A stretch of 64,000 bases of DNA from Thelephora terrestris (Eukaryota; Basidiomycota; Agaricomycetes; Thelephorales; Thelephoraceae). The notes under the pieces were generated by a model that ran no database searches, was not told the origin of the DNA, and saw only the letters and a list, made by a program, of their open reading frames with translations. Below, piece after piece: positions 3,623 through 60,924 of this stretch; position 1 is the stretch's first letter; each line of letters opens with the position of its first letter. Both the position numbers and the translations under genes were made by a program. The stretch is taken from NCBI GenBank assembly GCA_015956445.1, contig WIUZ02000017.1:434001-498000 (forward strand), read 5' to 3'.

Positions 3623-4806
3623 ATGTACGGATACTCAATTTATGGCGAGCCGCCGTCGACGCCATCGCGATCGTCGCGCTCCCAACTCACTCCCGCAACG
3701 CCCCGGTCAAGCGTGATGACGACACACACTGGGCCCAGTGGAGATGCGGGGAATGGAAACCCAACGCTGATCACCTACACCACGATATCCCAGGAGTATG
3801 CTTCGTTGAGGTACCCTGGACACTGCCCGCTCGGGATGTACTTGATCCCGGACAAAAGTAACCTATTTGTTTGGGATGGAGTGTTCTTCATACACCAAGG
3901 TTCGTCACCCACCCATCCGTACACCCCCCTCTGCCTCTTGTGATAATTAAAGAGCTGACTTGCCCTTCACCTTCATTCCGATCTGTACCCCGTCATTCAT
4001 ATTCGACTATGACGGTGATATATGACGACGTGAACTCGACCTTCATAAAGGCTATTACTCGGATTGCATCCTAAAGTTCCGCCTCATATTTCCAAAAGAT
4101 TATCCAAACTCGGCACCACAAGTCCAGTTCTTAACGGACGTCTTTCACCCGTTAATTTCACAAAAAGACGGGAGTTTCAACCTCTCCCCGCGGTTCCGAC
4201 CATGGAGGTAAGCAGTCTAGACCCCCCCAAGAGAGTTGAGAAAAACAAATCCGTCTCCTCGTCGTCTCATACATAACCACGTAACCATAAGGAGGATCGT
4301 GAAGGTCTCACGTGTATCATCCTTATCTTCTAGGCCAAGTGAACATCACGTTTACGATGTGTTGCATTGGGTCAAAGCTTCCTTCAAGAAACAAGCCCTG
4401 GACGAAATCAAGGACCACGACTGCTTCAACAAGGAAGCATTCAGATTGTGAGTCGTACGACCAGAAATCTCCTTACCTCACCTCACCTCATTCATTCACC
4501 CGGACCTCCGCACTCACCTCATTCATTCTCCATCTCGTCATCTCACACACGCGCACGCTCACACGACCTCGCACACGACCTGGGGTACCCACTCTACACA
4601 GATACCACGAGTCAACGTCCTCATTCGCAGCGTTAGCGACCCAATCATCCATGCTCTCCCAGTCCGCCTCCGCGTTGTTCGACAAAGACCATCCTTCGAT
4701 GGCGGGTAAAGGCACGCATGGGATCGCGTTCAAAGAGCTCAAACACGATCAGCTCGATGCGATCCGAAAGAAAATTGGATTACGAGATTGGGGCGATGAG
4801 TCCTGA
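3623..4806 (+). CDS. AKTIP/FTS-type UBC-fold protein (inactive E2 variant)
   Basis: Four exons (3623-3899, 4051-4207, 4334-4447, 4602-4806) encode about 250 aa. An S/T-rich N-terminus leads into a ubiquitin-conjugating fold: SLRYPGHCPLGMYLIPD, LFVWDGVFFIHQG, YYSDCILKFRLIFPKDYPNS, PQVQFLTDVFHPLI. The segment where active E2 enzymes carry the HPN motif and catalytic cysteine reads HPLISQKDGSFNLSPRF, so the cysteine is absent. That is characteristic of AKTIP/FTS, a partner of Hook and FHIP proteins in dynein-linked endosome transport in fungi and animals. The tail (KELKHDQLDAIRKKIGL) also fits that family. Family assignment is from memory of its features; complex membership is inference. Confidence 0.8.
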
Positions 4807-5931
4807 CTCGTCAGGCTTCGAAGCCTGTAGGTTTCCTGCCCCCTCCCTTCCACCGGTCCTTCTCCCCGTTCTTCCATCCCCACCTTACGGCTCTCCATCT
4901 AGCCTACATGTGTCCTCTCATGGTGCAGGGTGGAGTTACGTATGCCCACGCGCTCGAAGCTCTAGAGCCTATGTCTTGTGCGCCACAGGAGAGAAGGTCT
5001 CACAAGACCATAAGATCGCAAGACCACAGGACCCTATTCCCTTCCTCATGTTCTCCTTGCACGCATTTCGTAATGAGCAGTTTCCATAAATGCGATACTT
5101 GACATCCCAGAGGTATTCGAATCACAACATGATGAATTCTGAGTGCTCGAGGGAGAAAATTAAAGCATGTGCGAACCAAATGCTACCCCTAGAAGAGATA
5201 GCGAACCAAGAACTGGACTGAGAGACAACAAGCAAACTGAGCTAAAGTGGAATGAAAACGAAACTAGACAGAGCTAAAATGATACACCAATCTACGTGCT
5301 ACTTTACTCGTACAGCGCTCCACGGCAGGGAAAAAAGGAAAGGAAAGAGAAAAAAGAAACCACGGCACGAAATCACAACGAACGTTCGTCGGCAGATGGT
5401 GAACGTTGGCGCTGAGATCTGGACGCTAGAACCCACTGCCCCTTCATATATAAACCCCCTCCATCTCCTCCCCCCTTCGCCGGACATCACCCCAGTAGTT
5501 GCAGATCGTAACGAGCCGGTACCCCGCGGTACGACACTGCGGGGAAGCCACGAGGCAAAGGCGTTTATTCGGGGCTGCTTGCCACTCCCCCCTCGGTGAC
5601 TGAGGTCGCAAGGGGCGCAAATAGGGTATCGGATTCTTCACCCTATAAGATAAATGGAGAATTGAGGTCAGAACGTTGCAACCACGAGCTTAGAGGAGAA
5701 AAGGGGAGGACGCAATGATTATGAAATAAAACATTGAGAATGGCAAGCGGCGGTAATAAAACAGCACGATGGGCGACAAAAATAAATCACAGCTAATATC
5801 AAACGTGACATAACGATTCGTGCAGCGATGGTGATAGATGAGTCATGGATGGGAGAACATATGCACGGTGCGTGGATGGTGGCAAAGATGCAAGCGATAG
5901 CGAAAAGTGACGAAAAGCATGAGACAACAGA
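4807..5931. other. Convergent intergenic region, no gene seen
   Basis: This lies between the 3' ends of the AKTIP-like gene (plus) and the VIP1 gene (minus). It contains A/G-rich low-complexity stretches (near 5330-5370 and 5690-5800). No conserved coding sequence is visible on either strand. It presumably holds both 3' UTRs. Confidence 0.5.
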
Positions 5932-25090: not shown

Positions 25091-28000
25091 TCAAGCCCGC
25101 TTAGGGGAGAGAGGGAGTGACCTCGTTGATCTGCGAGGGGGGCGATCAAAACCAGGTTCCAAGGGTTCCACAGCTACATTCAACTGTTTTATTCTCTGCG
25201 CGACTAAAGCACTCTGTCTCCTCTTCGGCGTGATCGGTCGCACAGGCATCGATTGTGACCTCGTGAGGGCTGCCGGCTCGTCAGAAAATTCTGACTCCAT
25301 CGAAATGATCGTCAACCCGTAGCATCCCCCTATCATCCCATCCGTAGTTGTGATATCTTCCTGAACATCTTTGGTGGCGGCCGGTATACCTAGCATGACT
25401 TCGTTATGAGGTTCCTCTTGGCCTTTGAGAGCTGGTCTCGGTTGAGGTACATCATTAGCTGAGGGGACTAGCGCTCGGGGGCATGGGGGGTAGATGTTGA
25501 AGTGAGGATACGCTGCCTTGTCTGCGCACCAGATTAATAGACGATCCGGAAGATGGAAGGCTCGACTCACCTATTTCGAGTGCTGGGTACGCTGGGTACG
25601 ATAACACAGGCATACTCCCTAGCTGAGAAGCCGATTCTCCAGAGTTAACAGAGGAGAAAGGGTGCACTTCCTCTTGGAGCTCGCAGGGAGGTTTAAGTGC
25701 CTTGATGACCTGCTCAACTGCAGGGACCACCTGAACGCATGTCCATGATGGATAAATATCAAAGTGCGGGTAGACCGGGTCATCTAGCACGAATGGAGCG
25801 TCGGTCGTTGAAGGATATGGTTCCTTAAAGCAAGGCAACTCACAGATCTTAATGACAGGATACGGCGGCTTCGATACACCGACAGGTTTGGGTGGTGTCG
25901 TCGTGGGACTATCTACTGTAGAAGCCAAGGGGGGTTCGTGACGGACTCCGGTGTGATTTTCGCGTCGAGGGCGATCCTGCGTGCGCGACCACGATGGGTA
26001 GATATTGAAGTGCGGGTAATTTTGTTTGTCTAGGGGTCGTAGGATGCGTCAAAAATACATGAAGAGGACTGGAGGAAAGTTTGATTGACAAATCTCTATA
26101 ACGGGATACAAAGGGCCGGGAGTGTGCACAATCCGTGTTGTAGGTGTCGCAGTTACTTTTGAAAGATGAGTACGCACAACTTCAGGAGGCGAAGGGTGGA
26201 TAAACCTACCTGCGACTCTGTTTTTCACTAAGGCCCCTCTTATGGTGGGATAAATATCGAAGTCAGGGTACACGGTGGGATCTAAACGAAACAAACCATA
26301 AGGTGGGAGGGAAACTTTCCAGAAATAGACTCACAGATGTCCAATCGGGGATACGCAGCCCCTATTTTCACCGAGACAGAGACCACGTTCAACTTCCCAG
26401 AGGCCGCTCTCGATCGTTGTTCTCGAGGTGGTTGGGCGGAGCTTCTTCCGGCTACCGCTAGATAAATGTCGAAATAAGGATACACTGGAGGATCTACCCT
26501 CGCAAGAAACAGCAGCAATATTTTTCAAATTGTTGAGTGAGATCCATTGACAAAAGAACCAATCAGAAGGAGAAAGTTAATCACAGATTGATATCACCGG
26601 ATACGCGAATGGTTCCTGGAAGGATGACGCCTGGTCGTGTTGTGAAGAGGGTGGAAGTGTTTGTGAAAGTGCTTGCAGAGTCACGTAGTCCGGTAACTTT
26701 GGAACTGGGGGTGCGTCTTCATCAGCTGTGAACCGCTTGCGTAATTTGGCGCGCGCTGGCCGGTTCCGTGGTTGACGGACGGATGCTTGCGATGGTGTCC
26801 TGGTGATTTCGCCAGCAATGGGAGGGTAGACATCGATCCATGGGTACACTGGAGGATCTATACCGAGCCGACATCTGAACACTCGAGCCCGTGTTTGTGG
26901 TCGAAGACTTACATATGACTAAGGAAGGATAGCCAACTGTGAGATGTACATCTGCGGCTTTGATGCTGCTCAATGCAGAAGGAACGCGTGTTGGATGTGA
27001 TGAGCTTAAAGTACCAGTAACTGTAGGATAGATGTTTAGGTGAGGATAGACAGAGGGACCTGAGGGAACATAAGCGAAAACCAACACGTGGAGGGACAAT
27101 TGCTTACAGATATCGAAGACTGGGTAGGCCCCTGGCAAGCGCGCCGAGATCGTCATCTTGGGGACATAACGAGCAACCTTTGGGTAAATGTCGAAGTGAG
27201 GGTACATTGCGTTGTCTACGGGGACTATCAAAACCACGGTGTTTGTAGGCGGCCGGAGAAACACTTACAGATCTTCATCGCCGGGTAACCAAGTTTCGTT
27301 CCCGTGGATTTCTTGGGGGCGACTAAAAAGTGCGGCTGTACGGCTGGTGTCGGACGCCGAACCGGGATGTACCTTTCCACCGAAGGATACACATCGAAGA
27401 AGGGATAAACGGCTGGATCTAAGGGCATCGAGATTAGCAAATACTTATAGCATAGAGTTCCAAGCCACGGTGAACTCACAAATTTTAATGGCAGGGTACG
27501 CCATGGCGGACTTCGGAGTTGGAGACGGGGTTAAGTCGGCGACAGAGGGTGGGCCTGGAGTCGGGCGAGAATCGGGTCGAGAAGAAGGCCCCCCGAATGC
27601 CCACGGTTGTGTCCCTAGAACATTCGGACCAGAGAGTAAATACGAGTCGAGTTCTCGCCCATCGTCACTGGGCTTTACCGCCACTCGGGGTTGGGCAGAT
27701 TGGATCTTCGGGTAGATCTCGAAATAAGGATATACCGCGGGGTCTACTTGTATTATGGTGGTTAGAACATCATGTCATGTAGAAACAAGCGAAGGAATGT
27801 TATCGATCACGCGGAAAGAGGGATACGTACAGATATCAAGAGCTGGGTATGCAACTCGACTGGCTTTGGGTAAAGTGCCCGTGATTAACGCAGACGAAGT
27901 CGCGGAGGTGGTAGGTCCTTGCGTCCTGATGGCTGAGATGTTGGGCAGGCTACTGGAGGCGTGACTCTGAACGACGGAAACAGCCTGGACCGAAGGGTAA

Positions 28001-30242
28001 ATGTCGAAATGGGGATACACAGCAGGATCTATGCGTAGGATTGCAACGTGAGGAAACAAAAAGTGATGAAGTGTAAGAAACCGCTCACAAATCTTGATGA
28101 CCGGGTAGGCTGAGCGCTCCACCGTACTGACATGTTTCCGCGATTCCACCGGACCCAATGATAAAGCTGACTGTGTCAGGTATTTCCACAGCCCTGGCTC
28201 CTGAGATTTTGAATTTTCTTCATTGGGCATCAAACATGGCCAGACGATGTTCCAAGGAACAGATGATCCAGGCGTCATAGCCGTCCGTTGTGGCGCAAGA
28301 TCTCCAATTTCCTCCGCAAAGCTGAAAAACCGTTGGGCGGCGTCTGGAGTGCTCACTCTATTCAACGTAGTTGGGGTAGGCGGCCACTCCTCAGGAGGCC
28401 CCCAAGAAGTCGCAGTGCTCGGTGTTACCGGTCTGCTGCCTTCAGCCCTTCTCCCGAGATCAACAGAAGGTGGTCTACAGTAAGCGAATTGTGGCTCGAG
28501 TGAAGGAGAAGGTGGGTACTCGGAAGGAGGGCCCCAGGATGTGGTCGTTGAAGGAGTAGCGGGTCTGCTCCACCCAACCCTCTGCCCCAGGTCCAAGGAT
28601 GGGGCGCGGCGGTAGTAGGGCCATTGGGATTCTGGATCAGGCGAAGGAGGATATTCAGAGGGAGGTCCCCAGGAGGTAGCAGTGGTGGGCGTCATCGGAC
28701 AGTATTCCAAGTTCCTCTGACCAAGGTCGGGGGAAGGGAGCCTGAATTCTGATGTAACGGGAGAGAGGGGGTCGTAGTCACCTGGTCCCCAAGAAGTACA
28801 AGTCTCAGGCGTGAGAGGAACAGAGCCAATCCCACGTCTATCCATATGTACAGATGGCAGACGGCACGAGGAGACGGAGGCAGGGGAGTCGAGAACCGAC
28901 GGTGGGCCTAGTGAAGTGACGCTCCAGGAGTAGTCCTCTGGGTTTATCTCAGACCGAACCTCGTCCACTTCAACGGCCGGATCGTCCAATGAAAGTGTGT
29001 TGGGCATGTTGGCGGGATCCAGGCTAAGTTGTCCTGTTGAAGCGAGGAGGGTTGTGTTGAAAGTAGCGCCTGCCCTCCAAGACTCGACCAGGTTGTCGAT
29101 TCCCTCCCTGCGGGATGAAGGAGGCTCATTTTCCTGTACAAGGGGCGATAGAACTGGGTTCTCCGCGAGAGGAGGCGCAGGGTGGAGTTCTGGCATAGAC
29201 AAAGGGACTTGCTCCGCGATTGGCAAAGGGTTTCGGGGCGAAGAATCATTCAAGTCGAAACGTTCGAGCAGGGAGAGCCGTTTCGGTGTAGATCTTGCTC
29301 CATTTTTGGTATCAGTAATAGCCTGATTCTGCTCTTGTACATCCTCAAAGTTGACGGTTGTCTTGCTCTCCTGACGTTGATGAATGGAGGCGACGTGAGT
29401 GGGTGACAGAGACCCTGAGGATGTCGTCTCACGGCGAGACGCTGAGACCCAGGAGTCATACCACCGAGCTTTCCCAACGTCTGCGAATTGTGTCAGCCCA
29501 CAAAGGCGATCTAAGCCCGTTTACGAAACGTACCAATGTCAAACTCTATCCGACCAGAGATGGGAAGGCCGCCGCTTGGACCAGGAGCGTTCGGTTCGAA
29601 CAGGTGTCCCCAGAGGATCCCCCACGACTCTTCGCTTATCCGAGGTGTAAATGGTGTCCCAGCTTCATTGAGGGACATATACAGAGAGATCCCCACGATA
29701 CTCGGGAAATTGAATTCCCGCGCGATCGCGCCCAATTGTGCATACATCTGGATAGTTCAATGTGAACGCAATCAGTAAAAGATGCCATCTCCTGATAGAT
29801 GTGACACATATCAACTGACCGTCGAGTACAGGGGCATTAGCAATCCCTGGGACAGTCGAGAACTTGGGCCCGACGATAGTGTTTGGCCGAACACTCCCTG
29901 TGACTGGGCGACGAAGGCTGGAGGGAGTACAAGGACGAGCCAACGGGAAGCCCGGTGTCGTGAATGTTCTCGAGTGGACTGATTGTAACCTAGAACGGAG
30001 GTAGCGGTGCGGCTTTGCATCCGGGTCGGAGTTTCAGAGAGACCTGCTAGCGAAGGAAGGCTCGAGAATGAGAGTTCATTGGAATTGCCAAATGGATTGT
30101 GGTTGCCGGGCGTATTTGCTGGTAAACCCAAGTCATTGATGTACGGCATGCTGGCGGCGTTCGGAACGGCTGTGACAGCACGGTCGACGACTTGTTGAGC
30201 GGATGGTCTGTTCACATGGTGGGCGGATGTGAAGCGGGACAT
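25091..30242 (-). CDS. Large YP-block repeat protein, function unknown
   Basis: Fourteen exons sum to 4350 nt (about 1449 aa): 30242-29820, 29747-29534, 29480-28089, 28028-27831, 27743-27480, 27418-27269, 27215-27108, 27059-26913, 26857-26585, 26493-26335, 26281-26090, 26029-25844, 25783-25571, 25521-25091. Residues about 90-230 look like a folded domain (RWLVLVLPPAFVAQSQ, MYAQLGAIAREFNFPSIVG, FTPRISEESWGILWGHLFEP, RIEFDIDVGKARWYDSW). I believe it recurs in basidiomycete hypothetical proteins but cannot name it. Exon 3 adds an S/P-rich stretch with TSWGPP repeats. From exon 4 on, every exon starts (Y)PxVYPxF(D/N)IYP and ends YPx(I/L)xI; all these introns are phase 1. No signal peptide, membrane segment or enzyme motif is seen. 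It is divergent from CSN4 (371 bp). Confidence 0.8.
25500..28110 (-). repeat. Eleven YP blocks at successive exon junctions
   Basis: Joined junctions, 5' to 3' of the gene: YPVIKI-YPAVYPHFDIYP, YPALDI-YPAVYPYFEIYP, YPAIKI-YPAVYPFFDVYP, YPAMKI-YNAMYPHFDIYP, YPVFDI-CPSVYPHLNIYP, YPSLVI-YPPVYPWIDVYP, YPVISI-YPPVYPYFDIYL, YPRLDI-YPTVYPDFDIYP, YPVIEI-YKQNYPHFNIYP, YPVIKI-YDPVYPHFDIYP, YPALEI-DKAAYPHFNIYP. The hyphen is the intron site. The codon there is tyrosine split T|AT or T|AC in nine cases, cysteine (T|GT) in one and aspartate (G|AC) in one. The linkers between blocks are diverged, P/S/T-rich and 36-91 codons long per exon. Confidence 0.85.
28340..28880 (-). repeat. Tandem 40-44 residue TSWGPP repeat inside exon 3
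   Basis: Four clear units share TP-T-TSWGPP-EYPPSP followed by PS-DLG-R. TSWGP(G/P) occurs near 28790, 28670, 28538 and 28406, so the period is 120-132 bp. A fifth, weaker PSV-MDRR edge lies upstream near 28850. This repeat is unrelated in sequence to the YP blocks of the same protein. Confidence 0.75.
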
Positions 30243-49344: not shown

Positions 49345-52300
49345 CTAAAACCAAGGAACAAAGATCTCCGTCATCTTCATTAAACTGACGGGACTCGTCG
49401 AGGTGTCCACAAGACTTTTGACTGTGTGAACAATTACCCGCGCGTTGGGTGTGGTGGGATTTTGGGCAGCCTAAATAGCAACCTGTCAGCCCCAAAGGAG
49501 AAAACCCATCCCAATAGACATTTACTTGTTCACGTTCCAGTTTACAGGCAAGAGTCTCCGCTCTCGTCACAACACCCTTGGTGCTGTCAGCAACACTCGT
49601 CCTAAACGACAAGTCAAACATCCCCGGTTTTCCTCTACCGTGAAGCCAGGTCATGACTTCATCCCTACTGAACAAGCAAAGTTGTTGCTCAAGCTCGAAC
49701 TAAAGCGACAAAAATTAGCGGTCGTGAGGCATCGGTAAGTGTCGCATCTACCTCTGGCTCAGTCAAACCTCGACCGATTGCCATCAAACTTGGGACAAGG
49801 ATGCCCTCTTGGAAGACAGAGCCAATGAACCGTTGCAAGTTTGGGGTCAACCTAAATGGCACGACGTCACTCGAGGCGAAGACCGGGGCTTGACTGGACG
49901 TAGACGGCAGCAGCTCGCTCATCGCGATCAGGCCGGTCGTCCGCGACAGGTGGAACCGTGAGGGGAATCGGCTCGTCAAGCAGAGGATATAGGTCATGAA
50001 GCACGTCGCGGCGAGCTGAGTGGTGAACTGCTTCCGCATTCTCCACAGATCCGTCGGACTGTTCATCGTCTTCACCATATACTGTGTCGTGGACATGAGG
50101 CGAGTGAACGAAAAAAGTCAGCATACAAAGACTTACCTTGATAAGAATATCGTCCGGCATGAGTTTGTTGGTTACCTCGGAGAGAACCTCAGTCTTCAGG
50201 GTGAAGTACTCCGATTTGCTCGGCTATCCGAGGTGAATTAAAACTGCAGAGAAGAAAAAGATGAACATACCATTTTCCCGTGAGAAGCCTTGTAGTCTCG
50301 GAGAACGGTTTTGACCTTCTCTCCAATCATGAGGATCGGCTCTTCCCTGGTGATACCAGAATCTTCGCAGTACTGATCATAGATATCTCCGAGGGTGATG
50401 TAAGAAGAGTCATTCTGGATCAACCGCAAGTTCGGGCTACACGAAATTGCTGCAGGAAGGTGGAAACGAAGATTTCTCTTCTTTGTCTCCCTCTTGCGAG
50501 ATAGGGCACTTTTAAACAGTCAACAAGTGAGAAAGAATTGAAGTTCCCAGGTCATTCGCACCCATTGAAAGTCCTAAACAATTGCGTGACCCTTTCCTCT
50601 CGTTTCGTATGTCGTCCTGCGGGCAGCTGGACAGCAAACTTCGTGACGGACCCGTCGTTCCCATGCATGCTGAATCTTCGCCAACAGGAGCCATGCGACC
50701 TGCAGTTCTCGAACTTGTGCCCGAACTTCTGAATCTTGATGAAGTTCTGATTGTTATCCTTATCCTATTACGGTGGGTTAATTCGGTCGCCGGACTACAT
50801 GAACGAGATTTCACACCTCGAGATATTGCCCCGGTACCTCGATATCGTCGAATCTAGTGTATTGGAAGTCGACCAAATAGTGACTGAGAAGATCAAGCGA
50901 TTGTTCGCGGGGCTTGGAGTCTAGAAGACGCTCATAGCGGTGTCTCCAGTTCTGCAGTCGACGAAGGTACTCGTAATGTGTCAAAGGGGTTTTCAAAAAG
51001 TCTTCATCGTACTCTTTCTGCTCGAGGCTATGTTAAGACGGTAATGGGCAACGCGGAGATCACACACCCTTGCGAAAGGCGCGAGGTTCGTGGCCATCTT
51101 CTTGAGAGTCGCCACGGTCACCGGAAGAACCATGCCATCGTCATCCGGAACATTCATCCTCAGAACGTAATTCTAAAGGACAAGTTAACGTACGACCGTG
51201 TCGGAAAATGCTGTATTACCTGAATAGCGTCCTGCATGAGCATGCAGACAAGGCGATAGGTTTCCTCCTCCCCAGTAGCTTTGAAATGGGAGTTGATTTG
51301 GTCAACCAGCGTTTCCATGCAGAGGATCAGGAGTGGGAATGCTGTCTTCAGAATCTGGTTCACTTCCTCGATATGATCCCAGGCACCACGTATAGAAACA
51401 GGTGCAGCCGCAGCTTCCAACTGAGCTGCGGTTTGTGTTGTGGGCTGGGTGGTCGCGCCATTCACTGCGGAAGATTAGCAGGGGCTTGCGTTTGGAGCCG
51501 CCTTCTCACCTTCGCCTGGGACATCCTCCGTGTTGACGTCGGACATTGTGACGTCCTTGATCTCTGTCGCCTGAGCCTGCTGGTTGGCATCGGAGTGCAA
51601 TTGGGAGGCCTGTGCAGCGTGAGCCTGTGCTTGATTTGCAGTCATGGCACGTATTGCAGCCCGTTTCACAAAGCCCATCTCCTCCCTTGTGGTTCGTAAC
51701 GGAAAGAAAAGAGCCTAAAAGGATGATCAACCCTGGATCGAGTGGCATGCGCAAAGCCACCCACCTGGGGGAACAGCTTGGCGAGATTCAACAGGATGTA
51801 CCTCGCCTGCTTCACTTCCCGCTGAGAGATAGAACAACAAAGCTGAGGTATCAAGGTAATCCAATACCAGAACGCAGCATCCCCTTTGTATGTGTCGAAT
51901 GACCTCGAGATCGTGAAATTGGCATCGTCGACGCTCAGAAGCCAGAGCACCCGGGTCAACAGTGGACGACTCTTGCAGTTCTTGTAGAGGCCAGCAGCAT
52001 GCAGGTAACAGGTCACTGCGGTACCAGCGTAGACCATCTCCGTTGGATTCTCCTTGAACATGTTATCGCTGAACTTGCCCCAAGAAGCCCACGCCTTCGC
52101 TTGATTGAGATCCAGCTGGACCGCGTGGTTGAACTCCCCGCCCGCATCGTCCGTTCGTCCAAGTTTTGCGTGGAACATCGCCTTGAGAGTAAAGAACTCT
52201 GCCTTCTGTGCAGCGGAAAAGTACATGAGATTGGTGTTGTTAATGACGTCCAATCCCGCTTGTAGGTCATTGGGTCGCTGGTAGTGACAACGGGCCTGCT

Positions 52301-55300
52301 CTCTGAGTTTCAGAAACGCCTCAGAGATTTCGATGTTCGGCAGCGTATAGATCTTATTGAGGGAATTTGCGCAAACGTCCAGGAGGTCATGCTTGCGAGC
52401 GACATGAGCAAATCGGTTGATGATCCAGGCAGTTTCGTGAAAGCCTCGGTAGCCGAATGTGTTGGTGCTTGTTCCGGCGGTGCCGCCCTGGCCCGATGTC
52501 CCGATGAGAGGGAGGTACGTCTTGTTGATGGCATTGAAGACGTTCTGCCGCCAAGCCACAAGGTCGCTCCAGATACTGATGTCGTCGCAAAGGTTGGGCA
52601 GGCGTTCCCTCCAGAGTTGGAGGACCATTTTGAGGTCAGCAGACTTCTTCTCGAGGTTCTGAGCGGTGGTGGCGGAGAGGGAACCAAATATCTGGACAGC
52701 CTCCTGCAGCTCGACGAATTGTTGGAAGTGTTGAAGGAGCGGAATGTGCGCAGCGGAAAGGTGTGGTGGCAGTGTAACCCATTTCCTAAGGCAAAGCTGC
52801 ATTGCGTCTTCGAGAATCTTGGTGAATTCCACGTTCTTGTCCAGAGCGGCGGGTAGCTTGAGAAGGGCGAGGAATGCTTCATAGACACGACGACGAGGTG
52901 TAGGAACCTCGGGAAGAAGGTGGACCTGTTCCTCCAGTGACTCCATCTCATTCGGCCAGTCCTTGATCCTCCAAGCACTCTCCAGCATCAGCTCGTAGTT
53001 ATTCTCTCCGCGCGCCAAATCGTACAGGATATCCCAGTGCTGCAGTTTTTCGGAAGACAACATCCAGTGGTCCTCCCACAACGTGTACTCGTGATCGACG
53101 AAAGGGATGGCCCCAGAGCGCGCTTTGGTCTGGGCGTGCTCGTACAGAGTGGCGGCTTGTTCCCACATACCGCTCTGTTCCAGTGCTAGAGCCATATTGG
53201 TATCCTGGTAGTAGGAACCGCGGCGCCATAAGCCATAGAATGCGTCATCTTCTGCGAGTTCTGCGTAAAGCTCGGCCAGGGATTCAAAAACCGTGAGAGA
53301 GTCGGGTGAAGAATCGTCTGAAAATTTCATGTAACTCTCGAGGATCTCTATGCATACGTACCAAGCGCCAAACATCTTGGCCAGGTACTTGACCAGGTGG
53401 GGTGGGAGGAGCATGGGAGGAGAGCATCCGTGGATTCCTGCCAATAGGGTCTGGACAACGTTGGGACGTAGGTCCGCCTGCTTGATGTGGTACTCGCGAC
53501 TTAGGATGGTGATCATGTGCTGCGTCATCTCGCCTTGCTCACGTTTCGACAAACAAGACCAGACGGTGGGGAAGAATAGAGCCCAGATCTCGTGAGACGT
53601 CTGCGGGTCTAGGAACAAGATTCGTTGAACAGGGCGGATGAGATTGGAAGTAATGACCTGGGGTGGAAAAGTAGGGACGTTCCCAGCGAACGGCACATGT
53701 GAGTTCTGGACGAGAGATTGCTCGCCATCGAGCGTGCCGAAGAGGAGATGGAGAGCGAGGAACGTCCAATTGTGGTCACTGAGAGGCTCCCAGCTCTGCA
53801 CGCCAAGGATATAGGTGAGCCGATTCGACAACGACCTAGGGACGCTGACATCTAACAAATCGATGAACTTTTCCCGAATGGTTACGTCCTTCGCACGGCA
53901 GCCAACGAGGAAGCATGCCTCTAAACGTGTCGTAAGTTCGCTGCGACGCAAGGTTGGGGACGTGAAGATGTCGTAAATGAGTTCGTAGAATGGCTCCAGG
54001 ACGTCCGGTCGAGATTCGAAAGTCACCATTTTCGTCAACAACATCGCCTTCTCCTTCATCGTGGGGTATGCCTCCTGGCGATCCAAAGTCCATTCTCGCA
54101 CCATGCCTAAGATATATCGGCAGAGGGGGATACTTTTGGAGAAGGAGATCAAGTGGACGAGGGAAACGATGAGCTTGACACGGTTGTCTTGTCCGACGAA
54201 AGAGACAGAAACTTTGTAGATATCCAATATGCTCGTCAGCATCTTCACGTTGCTCTCAGAAGCCCCCGGTGTCGATGAGGTAGAAGTGGAAAGCTGGCCA
54301 TGCTCCTTGGTGATCTTCCCGAACAACTTGTTCAAGTACTCGCTAAACGGAGTGACGCGCTCTGGTATCGCCTGAGTTACCGACTTCAGCATGAGCAGTG
54401 CACCGCGAAGGGAAGTGTTGTTAAGGAGGCTTTCTGTGATGGAAGAGTGGATCCAAGCATAAAATTCTGCCATCTCCGTCTGGTCTTCTTCGCCCTCCTT
54501 CGGAAGCGGGAACAGTTGCATTAGACGATCGAACACTGGATGGAGAGCTTCTAGTAGGCTGGAGTCATCAGATGTTATCCCTTTGCGGATCAACTTCTGG
54601 AGGATGACGGCGTTCGCGGTGTACCAGGCGTCTTCCTTCTCCGCAGAAACGACTTGGAGGACCTTCGCTGCCTGGATGGCAAGGCTTAACTGAGGCTCAA
54701 GGGCAAAATCGAACTAATGACGCATCAGCGTTCTGAACTATGGGGGGGGGGGGGGGGGGGGGGGGGAGGAATACGTACTTGTTCAAGTGCTCGAACAAAG
54801 AAGTGCAATTTGACGGTCACATCGTTCCAGCCAGATAGACCCAAGACCGAACGGAGAAGATTGAGGGCACGGGGAATCACGAGGTTCTTGGAGTGTGCCT
54901 CCAAAGGGGTGGTCGCAAGCTTCACGAGATAGCTGACCATGGTTTCCTTGAAATTGATAGGCATCTCCCAGTGCGAGCCAGCGGGTTCGTCCACAGCCAT
55001 TGCATCGCCTGTTCCAGTCGCTTTTTGCTCCCATTCGAACATAACCTGGACGACCTCCACAGAAAGCAAGCGCGAATCGTGGGTGTTGGATCCTCCCAAT
55101 CCTAGCTTGAAAAGCGAATTCACCATGTGAGGGACGAAGACCGAACGGACGGGGTAGAAGAGATCTCGTTGGCGGACGATGAGTTGGTAGATGATCAAGA
55201 TCTGAGAGATCCCTGCCCCTTCTTCTGCCAACAGTCTGCGGGTGGTTTTCGCCCACTGGGGACAACCGCCGTCGTTGGACTGCATACGGGGGAGCGTCAC

Positions 55301-58300
55301 AGCGAGGACGTCCAACGCTTGGCGCACGAGTGCCCTTCCTTCGTTATGTGGTGGCCGCAATAAGCCGGTCCAAGCCCGGACAACAAACTTTTCTGGAGTG
55401 GGGAACGACTCAAAGAATCGCGCGGCAAGTAAATAGGCTGTGTATTTGACCACAACGTCCTCGCTCGTGATGTAATTCCATGCGCTCTTGATGATGACTT
55501 TTTGAACGTCTATAAGGAACTGGGGGTAATGCTGAACCATGATGGACGTGAGATGAAGCAGTTCGACCTTCAACGCGTCGTCTTGTTCAGGGAAAGAGTC
55601 TTTGATGTTCATCGGCGCCCAGATACGACTGTGAAGCATCCTAACAATTTCTTCGTCGACAAGACCGCCTTTGTTATCCGATGCAGTGGCATGAACGAGG
55701 AGCATGGGGGAGATGATGTACCGGATGAAGTATGTTTTCCGAACCCAGGTGACGGAGGGATCGCTGAACCACGAGAAGAACCGCAAAAGGATGCTTCTCT
55801 TGTAAAAAAGGTCGTTTGATGAGGCGACATGCTGGTAGATGAACCTCGTTAGGCTGAGGGTCTCGATGGGAAGGTTATGCGTAAAAATGGTGGTTATCTC
55901 GAAAGTGAGGTCGATTCGTGGAGCTTGCTTGAGTGCCTTGACAAAGATAGAGATAAGAAGGTTCGCCCGTTGGGATGCATCCAGGATCGCTTCCAGATTG
56001 TGTTCCATGCGGGCGGGGATGTGCGTCCTCCAAAGTCGAACGAGGCCATCGACGAGGAATTGGTTCGACATCAGGAGGGTTTCGTCCTGCGATGTGATAT
56101 CGTCGATCAGAAGCAAGCCGGGGACAATATGCTTGTGGTCCGTCGTCTGGAAACAGGCTGTAACGATAGCAGAGGCTCGCGCGACCACCTCTCGCAATAA
56201 TCGGGGAGCCAACTTTGTCTCTAGAACGCTTCTCAAAGATCGAATGTGTCGGGGGAAGAGGATGTGGTTCATGAAGAAGTCCATGGAGTCAACGGGGTAT
56301 CTGTTGAGATACTTGGCCAATGGTGTAGTGAACGGACTCGGGCCCGAGAATTGCATCTGCGCCTCAATCTGGACGATCGCGTTGACCAAGTTTTCGAGGT
56401 ACATGTTGGCGGTAGAGGGCAGGAGATGGAAGATGTTGGTGATACGGACGAGCTTGTTGATGCCTTCGTTGTCATGAAGAGGCAGTTTGGAAGAGGCTTG
56501 CAACATTTGCGGGTCGGCGACGAATCTGAAATGGTCCAGGAGCTTCGAGCCAATCTCAACTTTGAAGTAGTTCGTGAGGAGTTCAAGCAATCGCGCGAGT
56601 CCTTCGAGCCCCGAAACGGAGAGCCGCTTTGGATCTGCGAGGTTCATCAAGATCGGCCGGAGGCCAGTCTGTAACAAGTCTCGCGGCAGTTTGTTCTGGT
56701 GAGACATAACCATCTTCAGCCCTTCATAGGCGACTTCCTTGATCTCGGGAGAACTCGAGTATAACGATTTGAAGTAGGTGGATGAAACCCTGTATTCAGA
56801 ACTGTAGGTTTCAAAAACTTGCGGAGACAAAAAATCACCCACTTCTGCCTTGTCTGGATCTGCTTGGCGAAAAAGTCCGTCATTGGCATAGACGCGGTCA
56901 ACAACTTGATGCAAGCCACTCTCAACTTCGTGATCTCGATCAGTGACTGTCGCGGGTTTGCCCTCCCGAGGAGTGCTGCGTCCTCTGCGTCCGCCAAGGC
57001 CAAAACTTCGTGGAGTAATCGCAACAGTTCATCGTTGAGTTCCACGAAGTGCGTTTCCAAGCTAACGCAGTACCGAACGGCCTCGATGATACCGATCTGA
57101 ATCGAAAACGGGAGGGCGCGGAGGGGCTTCGTATACAGGGTCGCTAGGATCTTATCGCGTAGTGGCATGAGTAGATCGACGAGGCTCTTGTCGGTGAGTT
57201 CCGACAGAAGCTGAAGACACTTCTGCGATGCGTTTCTGACGAGAAGATTGGGATTCGACAAATCTTGGAAGAAGACACTGGTGAGGTGCATAAGTCTGTT
57301 GAGCTGCGGAGGGTCGGTCGGCTGGCTCGGAGGCATGTTCGAGCTACTGAGACGAAGAACGCGAGTCATTACGTCAATTACTTCGTCGACATCTCGCGTG
57401 AGGTCGTATGGCATATCTTTGAGCACATGCAGGAGCGTGCGGACAACAGTGACGTCGCGGTCGATGACGCACTTCTGTCCTAGTCCGGGCATACAGGCGA
57501 TGATTTTTATTCCAGCACACCCGGCGCTCTTGCGGGACCAGCCAGGTTCCAAACAGAGGGAGCTGAACCTCGCCGTGATATGGTACAGGATTCTCAGCAC
57601 GTCGACCTGGGAGAAGTTCGCGTCTACGGTCATAGAAATAAGGTTGGTGATGATGGTGGTCGCGAGCTCTCGTGATTTTGTCTTCTCCGCGGCATTCTCC
57701 CGGGCCAAGGAAGCGGGGAAAGTTTCCAAATAACACCCAAGCATGGGTCCGGGGTACCTACGGGCGGTCGTATCAGAGGGTCGTTCTGCAATTTCTTGCG
57801 CAAAAATATGGCGCGAAAGGTTCTTGATGTAGGTTTCCGCTTGATTCTGGAGCTCAGGGATGTGCACCGCGTCGAAAACTCCTTCCAGGCACCGTACGAA
57901 AACCTCTTCATGATCGCGACCCTTCACTCCCTATCTTCGAAGTCAATATACCTTGACCGCGATGCAGACGGAAGGAACGTACATCTTGGACAAGGACAGA
58001 TAAACAATTCTCGAGGTAGGCATATGCATATCCCTGATACTGAACCTTAGAATTAGCTGGGACCGTGGTAGGTGGCTTCTTAATGGTCTTCAGGGCTAAC
58101 TTCGACACGGGCGCTAGGTTCAAAGTTGTCGCATTCCCGGAGAACGAGACTCTGATCTTGGCGGGGTCTGAAAACTGTCTGTAGTCCAACAACGGCTCCT
58201 GATCCAACAGTTTCCGGTTCCTTCCTCCCAACTTTCCGAGTATCCGAATCGTCGTGTGCGCGTGATGGTGGTTGGCAGGGACAGGCTTGAGCAGGTCGTG

Positions 58301-60924
58301 AAGCGCCTCCATAAGATCCCTGAGGACCGTATTCAGGGTTGGATCCAGGAAGTCGGGGGTGAGGTTGTCAATACATAGCTCGAGTGTTCGAAGACCCTGA
58401 GATACCAGTTCGTTACCCCCACGCAACGCGAGAACCAAAGGCTGCATCAAGTATGTTAGGTGAGGCAACAAATGGGTGAGTCGTAGTGGCACAGTCAGGC
58501 ACAATTCGACAACTAGATCCCGATGAAATCCGGAAGAGGAATTGAGCTGTCGATTAAGGCATTCGAGCATCTCCGGAAGGAGAGGGAGCACCTCCTTGTA
58601 TATAAGCTCGAATTTTCCACCGCCTCCACCGATCGCTCTGAATAATCCGCGAAGCAGGTGGAAATAGTGCGTTCCATGAGGGGATTTGGCCGCAAGGGGG
58701 AAGCAGTCCATGATTAACCTTCCTAGCCGAGAAGCAAGGACAGACTCGTTGTCTGCAGGGAAGAGAGTTACAGCGCCAAATGCGAGCTTGAACATCCGGA
58801 TGATGGCCACCGCGACGGACTCGTCGAGTTCGCCCAGTTCAGGTAGCCTGGACATTAGGTGATCCAGAACGATTGGGACGAGAGTGGGAGAGATGTTGTC
58901 TCGAGAGAGGAGCTGCTGGATGATGGCAAGGATCCAGACCCGCTTCTTCGCGCAATCAACGTAAACCCCGATCTTCTGCGTCCAGACCTCCTGAACAATG
59001 TGGGGGTTGATCTCCACGAAGCAGAGCGCCAACCACTCCATGGCCTCGTTGACTTCCCGATCTTGACCGTCAAAAAACGATAGGCCATGCAGACCCGCTT
59101 CGAACATTCGGCTGACCAGTCCACCGTCAGGGACAGGAACCTCCAGTTTCCGCATTCCATTAAGGCAGGTCCGGAACCCGTGAACCAAAGTCCGGTAAAG
59201 CATTTTATACTCTGAAAACCACCTTAGCTCCGTCATGTGATCATAGACTCCCTGCACCTACCTGGCAGGATGTTCTCCGATTTCTCGCTTGCGAACAGCG
59301 CGACCGCATATGGCCTGGACTTCTCAATAGCGATCATATCCGATCCGGCTGCCTCGCCATTCTTTGTTTTTTCTGCTCGAGCAAGGATATCTTTATGAAC
59401 GGTAAGCATACTCTCTAGTTTCGCCGCAGAGATCTCGAGCATGGCAAGCAGCACTTTCGCAGCGGTATGTTTCGATGAAGCGCTCTTGGTAACAATCACT
59501 TCGACGGAGTTGTAGGCCATCTTAGCGCTAAGAATATGTGTGCTGATCGTAAGACAAGAGTTGTGCGTGAGGCCAAGGTAAAGGACAGCAAAGCGAGATA
59601 GCTGGTCGGGTTCCAGTTCTGCTCGCAGATAGTGGATGAGGTCCACCACCGAAAAGTATCCTTGCGAACTGCGCAGAACAGAGTGAGCAATTGGTATGTA
59701 GTTTGTGCAAGACGAACCGTAAGTATTCCTGGGACGCTATACTCGTTCCCAAGAGGACGCGCTCGTCGAGGAGAGTATCCAGGTGGTTGATGAGTGCCTT
59801 CCTCTTTGAGTTGACCGCGAATATGTGTCGCATGACGATCATCAAGTCCTAACCAAGAGAACCGGTCAGCTGTTTGTAGATATGAGGTACTTCGAAACTT
59901 GCTCTTCGTGAGAGTATCGCATTCGGAGGGCAATCTTGACAGAGTCTCAGTGATGTGAGCACGAGCGCTTCCCCGAAGGTTTCAAATTGTTCCCCCATGC
60001 CACGGAGGGTGAAGGTAAGGTAGGAAACCAACTACTAGATTTGTGAGGGTCTGTCGACGAGTATTCTGAGTGCTCTACCTTGATCTGTGCATTAATGAAA
60101 TCTGAATAGGCTTGGTTGTTCTTGATCGTTGGCGCAACACCAGCCCAGACGTTTCCCATAGCTTCACAATCCTCCCTTGCCTTCTTTTGCGCGGGAGATT
60201 CCAAGGCGAGAACCTCGAGGGTCAGTGGGATAGTTGGTTGCATCGCGGAAGTAACCATGACACGGTGGGATTGCATGAAGGTCATAACCACCATGCCCAT
60301 CTCCGCGAGGACCTTGAAACTCCGAACCGAGGGAAAGACCACGTTGGGGTCTAAGCGCGGAGAATCCTCAGAGAGTGTCTCCTGAACTAACGATTTCATG
60401 TTGCGAAACATTTCGAGTAGGATGGAGAAAAATTCTGCGACAATCTCTTCGGAGAGAGCTTTGAAGGAGCGCACGATATCGATGATAGTTTTGCAGCACG
60501 TTACGCCATTCTCCTCATTGTCGTGCCGAAGTAGGTAGAGCATTCCTTGGAACAGCGGGAGGGCCTGAGGCCGTATTGCGTCGCCAGATGGGATCCGGTG
60601 AAGAATGTCCACAAGGACACGGCGGAACTCGTACTCTGTGGTTTCTCGTTGGAACGAAGCCTTCCCAGAACGCAAGACCTCGATGATCACTGGAATCATA
60701 TTAGGAATAACTCGGGGGGTTTCAGAGTCTCTGGCAGTATCAATGGTTTCACGTAGCTCGCAAGCTAATGCATATTTTGTCTTTAGGTCTGGATTGAATC
60801 ACGAGATCTGTCAGCATCGTTGTGGCTGAGCGGAGGGACTTCGGTGAGCACCTATCCCAGGGTCCGCAATCCTCCCAACTTTGAGTTCCACCTCGGCGGC
60901 GGTGCTGACTGGCGCAGAGTCCAT
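49345..60924 (-). CDS. TRA1: TRA1/TRRAP, SAGA and NuA4 scaffold subunit
   Basis: PIKK-family pseudokinase that binds transcription activators. Nineteen exons give 3551 codons plus stop: 60924-60852, 60788-60079, 60031-59891, 59848-59718, 59668-59262, 59211-57983, 57930-56843, 56789-54779, 54713-51765, 51714-51510, 51464-51220, 51172-51068, 51020-50817, 50764-50562, 50508-50271, 50223-50137, 50081-49752, 49699-49526, 49470-49345. HEAT repeats fill most of it. The FAT domain follows (YAGTAVTCYLHAAGLYKNCK, YWITLIPQL). The kinase-like end has FQYTRFDDIEVPGQYLE, HGNDGSVTKFAVQLP, NSPTDLWRMRKQFTTQLAAT and RFHLSRTTGLIAMSEL where active PIKKs have catalytic-loop motifs. The FATC end is SLMKMTEIFVPWF. 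The length is slightly below that of yeast Tra1. Confidence 0.95.
54742..54766 (+). repeat. G25 homopolymer inside a TRA1 intron
   Basis: Twenty-five consecutive G on the plus strand, that is C25 on the coding strand, lie in the intron 54714-54778. They are about 12 nt downstream of the donor, so the tract sits between the donor and the branch region. The true length is uncertain, because such runs are prone to assembly and sequencing error. Confidence 0.85.

Follow-up and report, generated by a model that had tools for sequence, protein, structure and literature searches.

It is known that proteins can be brought together by arrays of short binding motifs, and tandem arrays of phase 1-1 exons occur in animal modular proteins. 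In this work, we have analysed a stretch of 64,000 nucleotides from the basidiomycete Thelephora terrestris (contig WIUZ02000017.1, positions 434,001 to 498,000; the window), which carries on its minus strand, at 25091..30242, a gene whose predicted product contains eleven copies of a block rich in Tyr-Pro pairs (the YP-block gene). We are slightly inclined to read this product as an intracellular scaffold for multivalent docking, whose array was enlarged by exon duplication. The closest described ligands contain related but shorter motifs. PalA binds PacC through two YPxL(I) motifs, which flank the cleavage site of PacC (PMC4832277); the founding paper on this motif is cited in the reference list of PMC12345238. 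The type 1 motif bound by ALG-2, as described in PMC5037681, consists of PPYP and YP four residues apart, with PYP or PxYP being weaker. On the receptor side, Bro1 and PalA/Rim20 are described as the two fungal homologues of ALIX (PMC2171039). Pef1, apparently the sole penta-EF-hand protein of Candida albicans, is reported to localise to growing tips and to places where the membrane is damaged (PMC13232526), and yeast Pef1p is reported to bind the Sec13/31p complex only without calcium (PMC3394733).

When the eleven copies of the block are aligned, the commonest residues read [AG]YPxΦxI-YPxV-YPxF[DN]I-YPx[VI]. The first-pass annotation, made from the letters of the DNA, had described an 18-residue motif; its eleven conserved copies stand, while the unit is better given as 20 residues, which form two tandem decads of the type YPxΦxIYPxΦ. 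The two halves of the block are identical at 53 of 110 positions, compared with a mean of 12 in permutations, none of which was as high in 10000 trials, and a regular expression for the block matches the product eleven times but has no match in any of 2000 residue shuffles of amino acids 641-1330. Despite codon variation, Y1, P2, I6, Y11, P12 and Y17 are invariant in all copies. Position 7 is Tyr in nine of the eleven, and six have YP at positions 7-8. The decads also differ from each other in a consistent manner, position 4 being Ile, Leu or Met in 10/11 copies, position 14 Phe in 9/11 and position 13 His in 6/11.

Purifying selection acts on the blocks. Across the 55 block pairs the proportion of synonymous differences (pS) is saturated at 0.90 and that of nonsynonymous differences (pN) is 0.22, which gives a pN/pS of 0.24 (column bootstrap 0.13-0.37), with pS exceeding pN in 55 of 55 pairs. 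The ten linkers between the 18-residue cores vary from 18 to 73 amino acids, and their similarity to each other is about that expected by chance from shuffles (3/45 pairs at p<=0.05). The saturated pS, the low pN and the chance-level linkers thus indicate that the blocks are old, separate and under selection; the earlier claim that selection acts on the motif and not on the linkers is supported. The 20-residue block on which this array is built, absent from the libraries searched, has been maintained by selection as the intervening sequence diverged.

The exon layout is also peculiar. The predicted strand-specific locus at 25091..30242, with 14 exons, 1449 amino acids and eleven blocks, was reproduced in full by spliced translation: the joined exons amount to 4350 nt with no internal stop, and the 13 introns, of 48-91 nt each, are all GT-AG. 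Exon 1 (29820..30242; this and all following exons on the minus strand) encodes amino acids 1-141 and contains the beginning of an N-terminal domain, from about amino acids 95-99; exon 2 (29534..29747) encodes the core of this domain (QLGAIAREF...ISEESWGILW...GRIEFDI). Exon 3 (28089..29480), which is open over 464 codons, encodes the end of the domain (KARWYDSW), a stretch rich in Pro, Ser and Thr with four TSWGP repeats, and the first half of block 1. The second half of block 1, a linker and the first half of block 2 follow in exon 4 (27831..28028, 198 nt), and each internal block exon likewise runs from the second half of one block to the first half of the next: exon 5 (27480..27743, 264 nt, blocks 2/3), exon 6 (27269..27418, 150 nt, blocks 3/4), exon 7 (27108..27215, 108 nt, blocks 4/5), exon 8 (26913..27059, 147 nt, blocks 5/6), exon 9 (26585..26857, 273 nt, blocks 6/7), exon 10 (26335..26493, 159 nt, blocks 7/8), exon 11 (26090..26281, 192 nt, blocks 8/9), exon 12 (25844..26029, 186 nt, blocks 9/10) and exon 13 (25571..25783, 213 nt, blocks 10/11). 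These ten exons (4-13) are all of phase 1-1 and of lengths divisible by three. Exon 14 (25091..25521) encodes the second half of block 11, the C-terminal tail and the stop.

All eleven block introns are in phase 1 and lie in the codon of block position 7. Since they share one codon and the exon lengths are divisible by three, skipping of an exon is predicted to restore a whole block, and the layout lets the number of blocks change in whole units. As a correction to the first-pass annotation, the introns are the more unusual part of this gene model, since a phase-1 junction reconstitutes each block. The likeness to the arrays of animal modular proteins lies in the tandem symmetrical exons; unlike in those arrays, the introns here split each repeat, the junction rebuilds it, and the host is a fungus. 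Tandem duplication of phase 1-1 exons would be the simplest origin of the array. The literature on exon duplication in fungi contained nothing comparable, and nothing on this protein, among the matches listed.

For the block introns, splice sites were chosen visually, guided by the repeat. If the donors are kept constant, a YAG acceptor 35-120 nt further along brings the second half-block into frame in every one of the eleven block introns; this frame-restoring acceptor is the sole one in six introns and one of two in the other five, and an acceptor that gives constant block spacing is available in all eleven. Two frames are open at the end of exon 1. The chosen frame scores 56 against a relative of the domain encoded on another contig, C45, where 1000 shuffles reach at most 49; the alternative frame was rejected, since it scores 33 and the shuffles average 36.

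In the docking scaffold that we propose, each block would be an independent peptide docking site, in which Pro may hold the chain extended while the Tyr and the aliphatic or Phe side chains point to alternate faces. Independent sites are favoured over one continuous solenoid by the uneven linkers and their chance-level similarity. Through the array, one partner could be recruited in many copies, and a different one could be linked to the array by the N-terminal domain. Duplication of phase 1-1 exons would have grown the array, whose valency may change by whole units through gain, loss or skipping of exons, with every block left intact. The highest 19-residue Kyte-Doolittle mean of the product is 1.3, at amino acid 101, so there is no long hydrophobic or transmembrane-like segment, in agreement with the earlier statement that membrane and signal segments are lacking. 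The suggestion of a multivalent scaffold, already present in the first-pass annotation, fits this anatomy and is kept here as a proposal.

The N-terminal domain, which could not be named at first, has kept its anonymity in Pfam and the PDB; it is not isolated, being common to a second gene of the same genome (40.6 Mb in 60 contigs). Matches to DUF6533 number 43 in this genome, which suggests an agaricomycete. It is homologous to an open reading frame (ORF) of contig C45, with E values of 5.8e-12 for amino acids 99-192 and 7e-6 for amino acids 202-228. This relative, at 3664-5682 on the plus strand within C45:843500-853400, was first detected with a weak E value of 0.09. Its domain contains an insertion of about 110 residues that distinguishes it from the domain of the YP-block gene. 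The C45 ORF has no Pfam match above the cut-off, and the half-block pattern does not occur in the six frames of the 9.9 kb around it.

The 20-residue block matches none of the libraries searched. No Pfam-A family was found at E<=10 for the 1449-residue product, and no PDB sequence at E<=10 for the domain, for one block or for a two-sequence profile of the domain. Thus, the claim that the product belongs to no recognised family holds in both databases, and the blocks gave no hit to a known globular fold. In a collection of viral contigs the block pattern was absent; 18 stretches fitted the domain pattern, none of them confirmed. In a collection of genome contigs the block pattern occurred in six stretches, with one match each, all in bacterial records and read as chance. 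Seven exact block strings were absent from the literature searched, although the protein may still have been described elsewhere, and the literature on Tyr-Pro repeats held nothing on it among the matches listed. The product contains a second repeat family, four TSWGP-type units with TP sites at about amino acids 431-599. Elsewhere in the genome, neither this stretch nor the C-terminal 66 amino acids had a counterpart at E<=10 among the best candidates, to which scoring was confined.

Within the genome, a pattern for the second half-block was found at 12 places: nine of the eleven blocks of the gene itself (the other two fall outside the letters of the pattern), a pair, one on contig C8 and the other on C22, and a further place on C8, which adjoins stops and looks like chance. 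A narrower block pattern gave four places and a protein query five, all inside the YP-block gene. The pair consists of broken partial copies of window positions 25894-26407, that is, of parts of exons 10-12, with 83-89% identity. They lie at about 4797-5340 of the stretch C8:910500-920400 and at about 4414-4948 of the stretch C22:135500-143613. The C8 copy has gaps at 14 positions in 405 and at 2 in 110. Both copies sit inside an 8.1 kb segment that C8 and C22 share at 99.5% identity, and the C22 copy is about 3 kb from the end of its contig.

Several points weigh against the docking scaffold and the gene model on which it is built. The repeat itself steered the placement of the splice sites, and a mechanical splice search (dynamic programming with guessed weights) did not recover the hand-made model: one run ended at 656 amino acids, and models of 15, 29 and 40 exons came from three others that were made to reach the terminal stop. 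The solution with 15 exons agrees with the hand-made model at 11 of 13 donors and at both ends of 6 of 13 introns. The case for exon duplication stands solely on the position and phase of the introns, because the intron sequences are dissimilar (3/55 pairs at p<=0.05, as by chance); intron similarity, considered as proof of duplication, yielded nothing above this level, and copies of the age implied by the synonymous sites would be expected to have lost it. Exon 2 folded alone had a mean predicted local distance difference test score (pLDDT) of 48, and we claim no fold for the domain. Finally, on present data self-association would explain the block about as well. In this main rival to the docking scaffold, the blocks would be cohesive stickers that pair through Tyr/Pro and aliphatic contacts, by beta pairing or in a condensate, and build a matrix or condensate in place of recruiting a receptor. 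The sticker-and-spacer anatomy, the two-faced decads and the presence of two similar stretches in each block speak for it, while the consistent differences between the decads at positions 4, 13 and 14 exceed what a simple sticker needs, and as a whole we hold it to be improbable, if worth serious attention. We give very little credence to the view that the exon model is an artefact shaped by the repeat of a decaying gene: broken partial copies do exist elsewhere in the genome and the mechanical runs did yield other models, but the pN/pS of the blocks, the 464 open codons of exon 3, the acceptor test on the block introns and the conservation of the N-terminal domain with the C45 gene all argue against an artefact. 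Equally remote is the idea that the product is a cargo of adaptor proteins or an extracellular Tyr-rich structural protein, secreted or of the wall. It contains 47 matches to YxxΦ, but this is a loose motif, and the absence, by hydropathy, of a hydrophobic segment that could serve as signal peptide or membrane span speaks against the array being the tail of a membrane protein.

A further possibility, which concerns the partners and which we consider quite doubtful, is that the product is a scaffold on the side of the endosomal sorting complex required for transport (ESCRT), whose blocks would bind the V domains of Bro1-family proteins through YPx[LI], or penta-EF-hand calcium sensors through YP-X4-YP, or both, and so bring together the machinery of membrane repair or of pH signalling. 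The product contains 14 instances of YPx[LI] (1.0 expected), including nine of the eleven first tetrads of the blocks, and YP-X4-YP occurs 16 times (0.065 expected); these enrichments follow from the block itself and were noticed post hoc. The genome encodes two loci with Bro1 and V domains, as expected from the fungal homologues Bro1 and PalA/Rim20, and two penta-EF-hand loci (C12:2951080-2951820 and C60:1030942-1031236), one of which was compared with the PDB and is closest to ALG-2. With the PacC/Rim101-type ligands, the YP-block product has in common the YPx[LI] motif and the V-domain receptors encoded in the genome. In contrast to the four residues of that motif, its conservation extends over 20, I6, Y11, P12 and Y17 also being invariant, and its array has eleven blocks instead of the two motifs of PacC; nor does it have a zinc finger, unlike those ligands, as follows from the lack of a Pfam match. 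With the ALG-2 type 1 ligands such as ALIX and PLSCR3 (PPYP-X4-YP) the likeness lies in the YP-X4-YP spacing, but 14 of the 16 cases lack the leading Pro: PYP-X4-YP, and hence PPYP-X4-YP, does not occur at all, and PxYP-X4-YP occurs twice. Neither YPx[LI] nor YP-X4-YP accounts for the invariant I6 and Y17 or for the Phe at position 14, and motifs like those of the ALG-2 ligands are reported in PMC5037681 as not found in the yeast homologues of ALIX and Sec31A. Were the partner a Bro1-family or penta-EF-hand protein, the product could act as a hub in the fungus, either of membrane repair or of pH signalling. The fullest version, a splice-adjustable scaffold whose eleven blocks (22 decads) would dock both the calcium and the pH machinery of the ESCRT side, with junctions that regenerate the ligand and a valency that changes stepwise without loss of frame or motif, is more speculative still, and we think it very unlikely. 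Regardless of any partner, the two penta-EF-hand loci of this genome compare with apparently one, Pef1, in Candida albicans.

As for the surroundings of the docking-scaffold candidate, its upstream neighbour is a PSMD12/CSN4-type gene on the plus strand, which starts at about 30614 and matches PSMD12-CSN4_N and PCI. A Tra1-like gene with matches to Tra1_central, Tra1_ring and FAT occupies window positions 51669-59257 on the minus strand.

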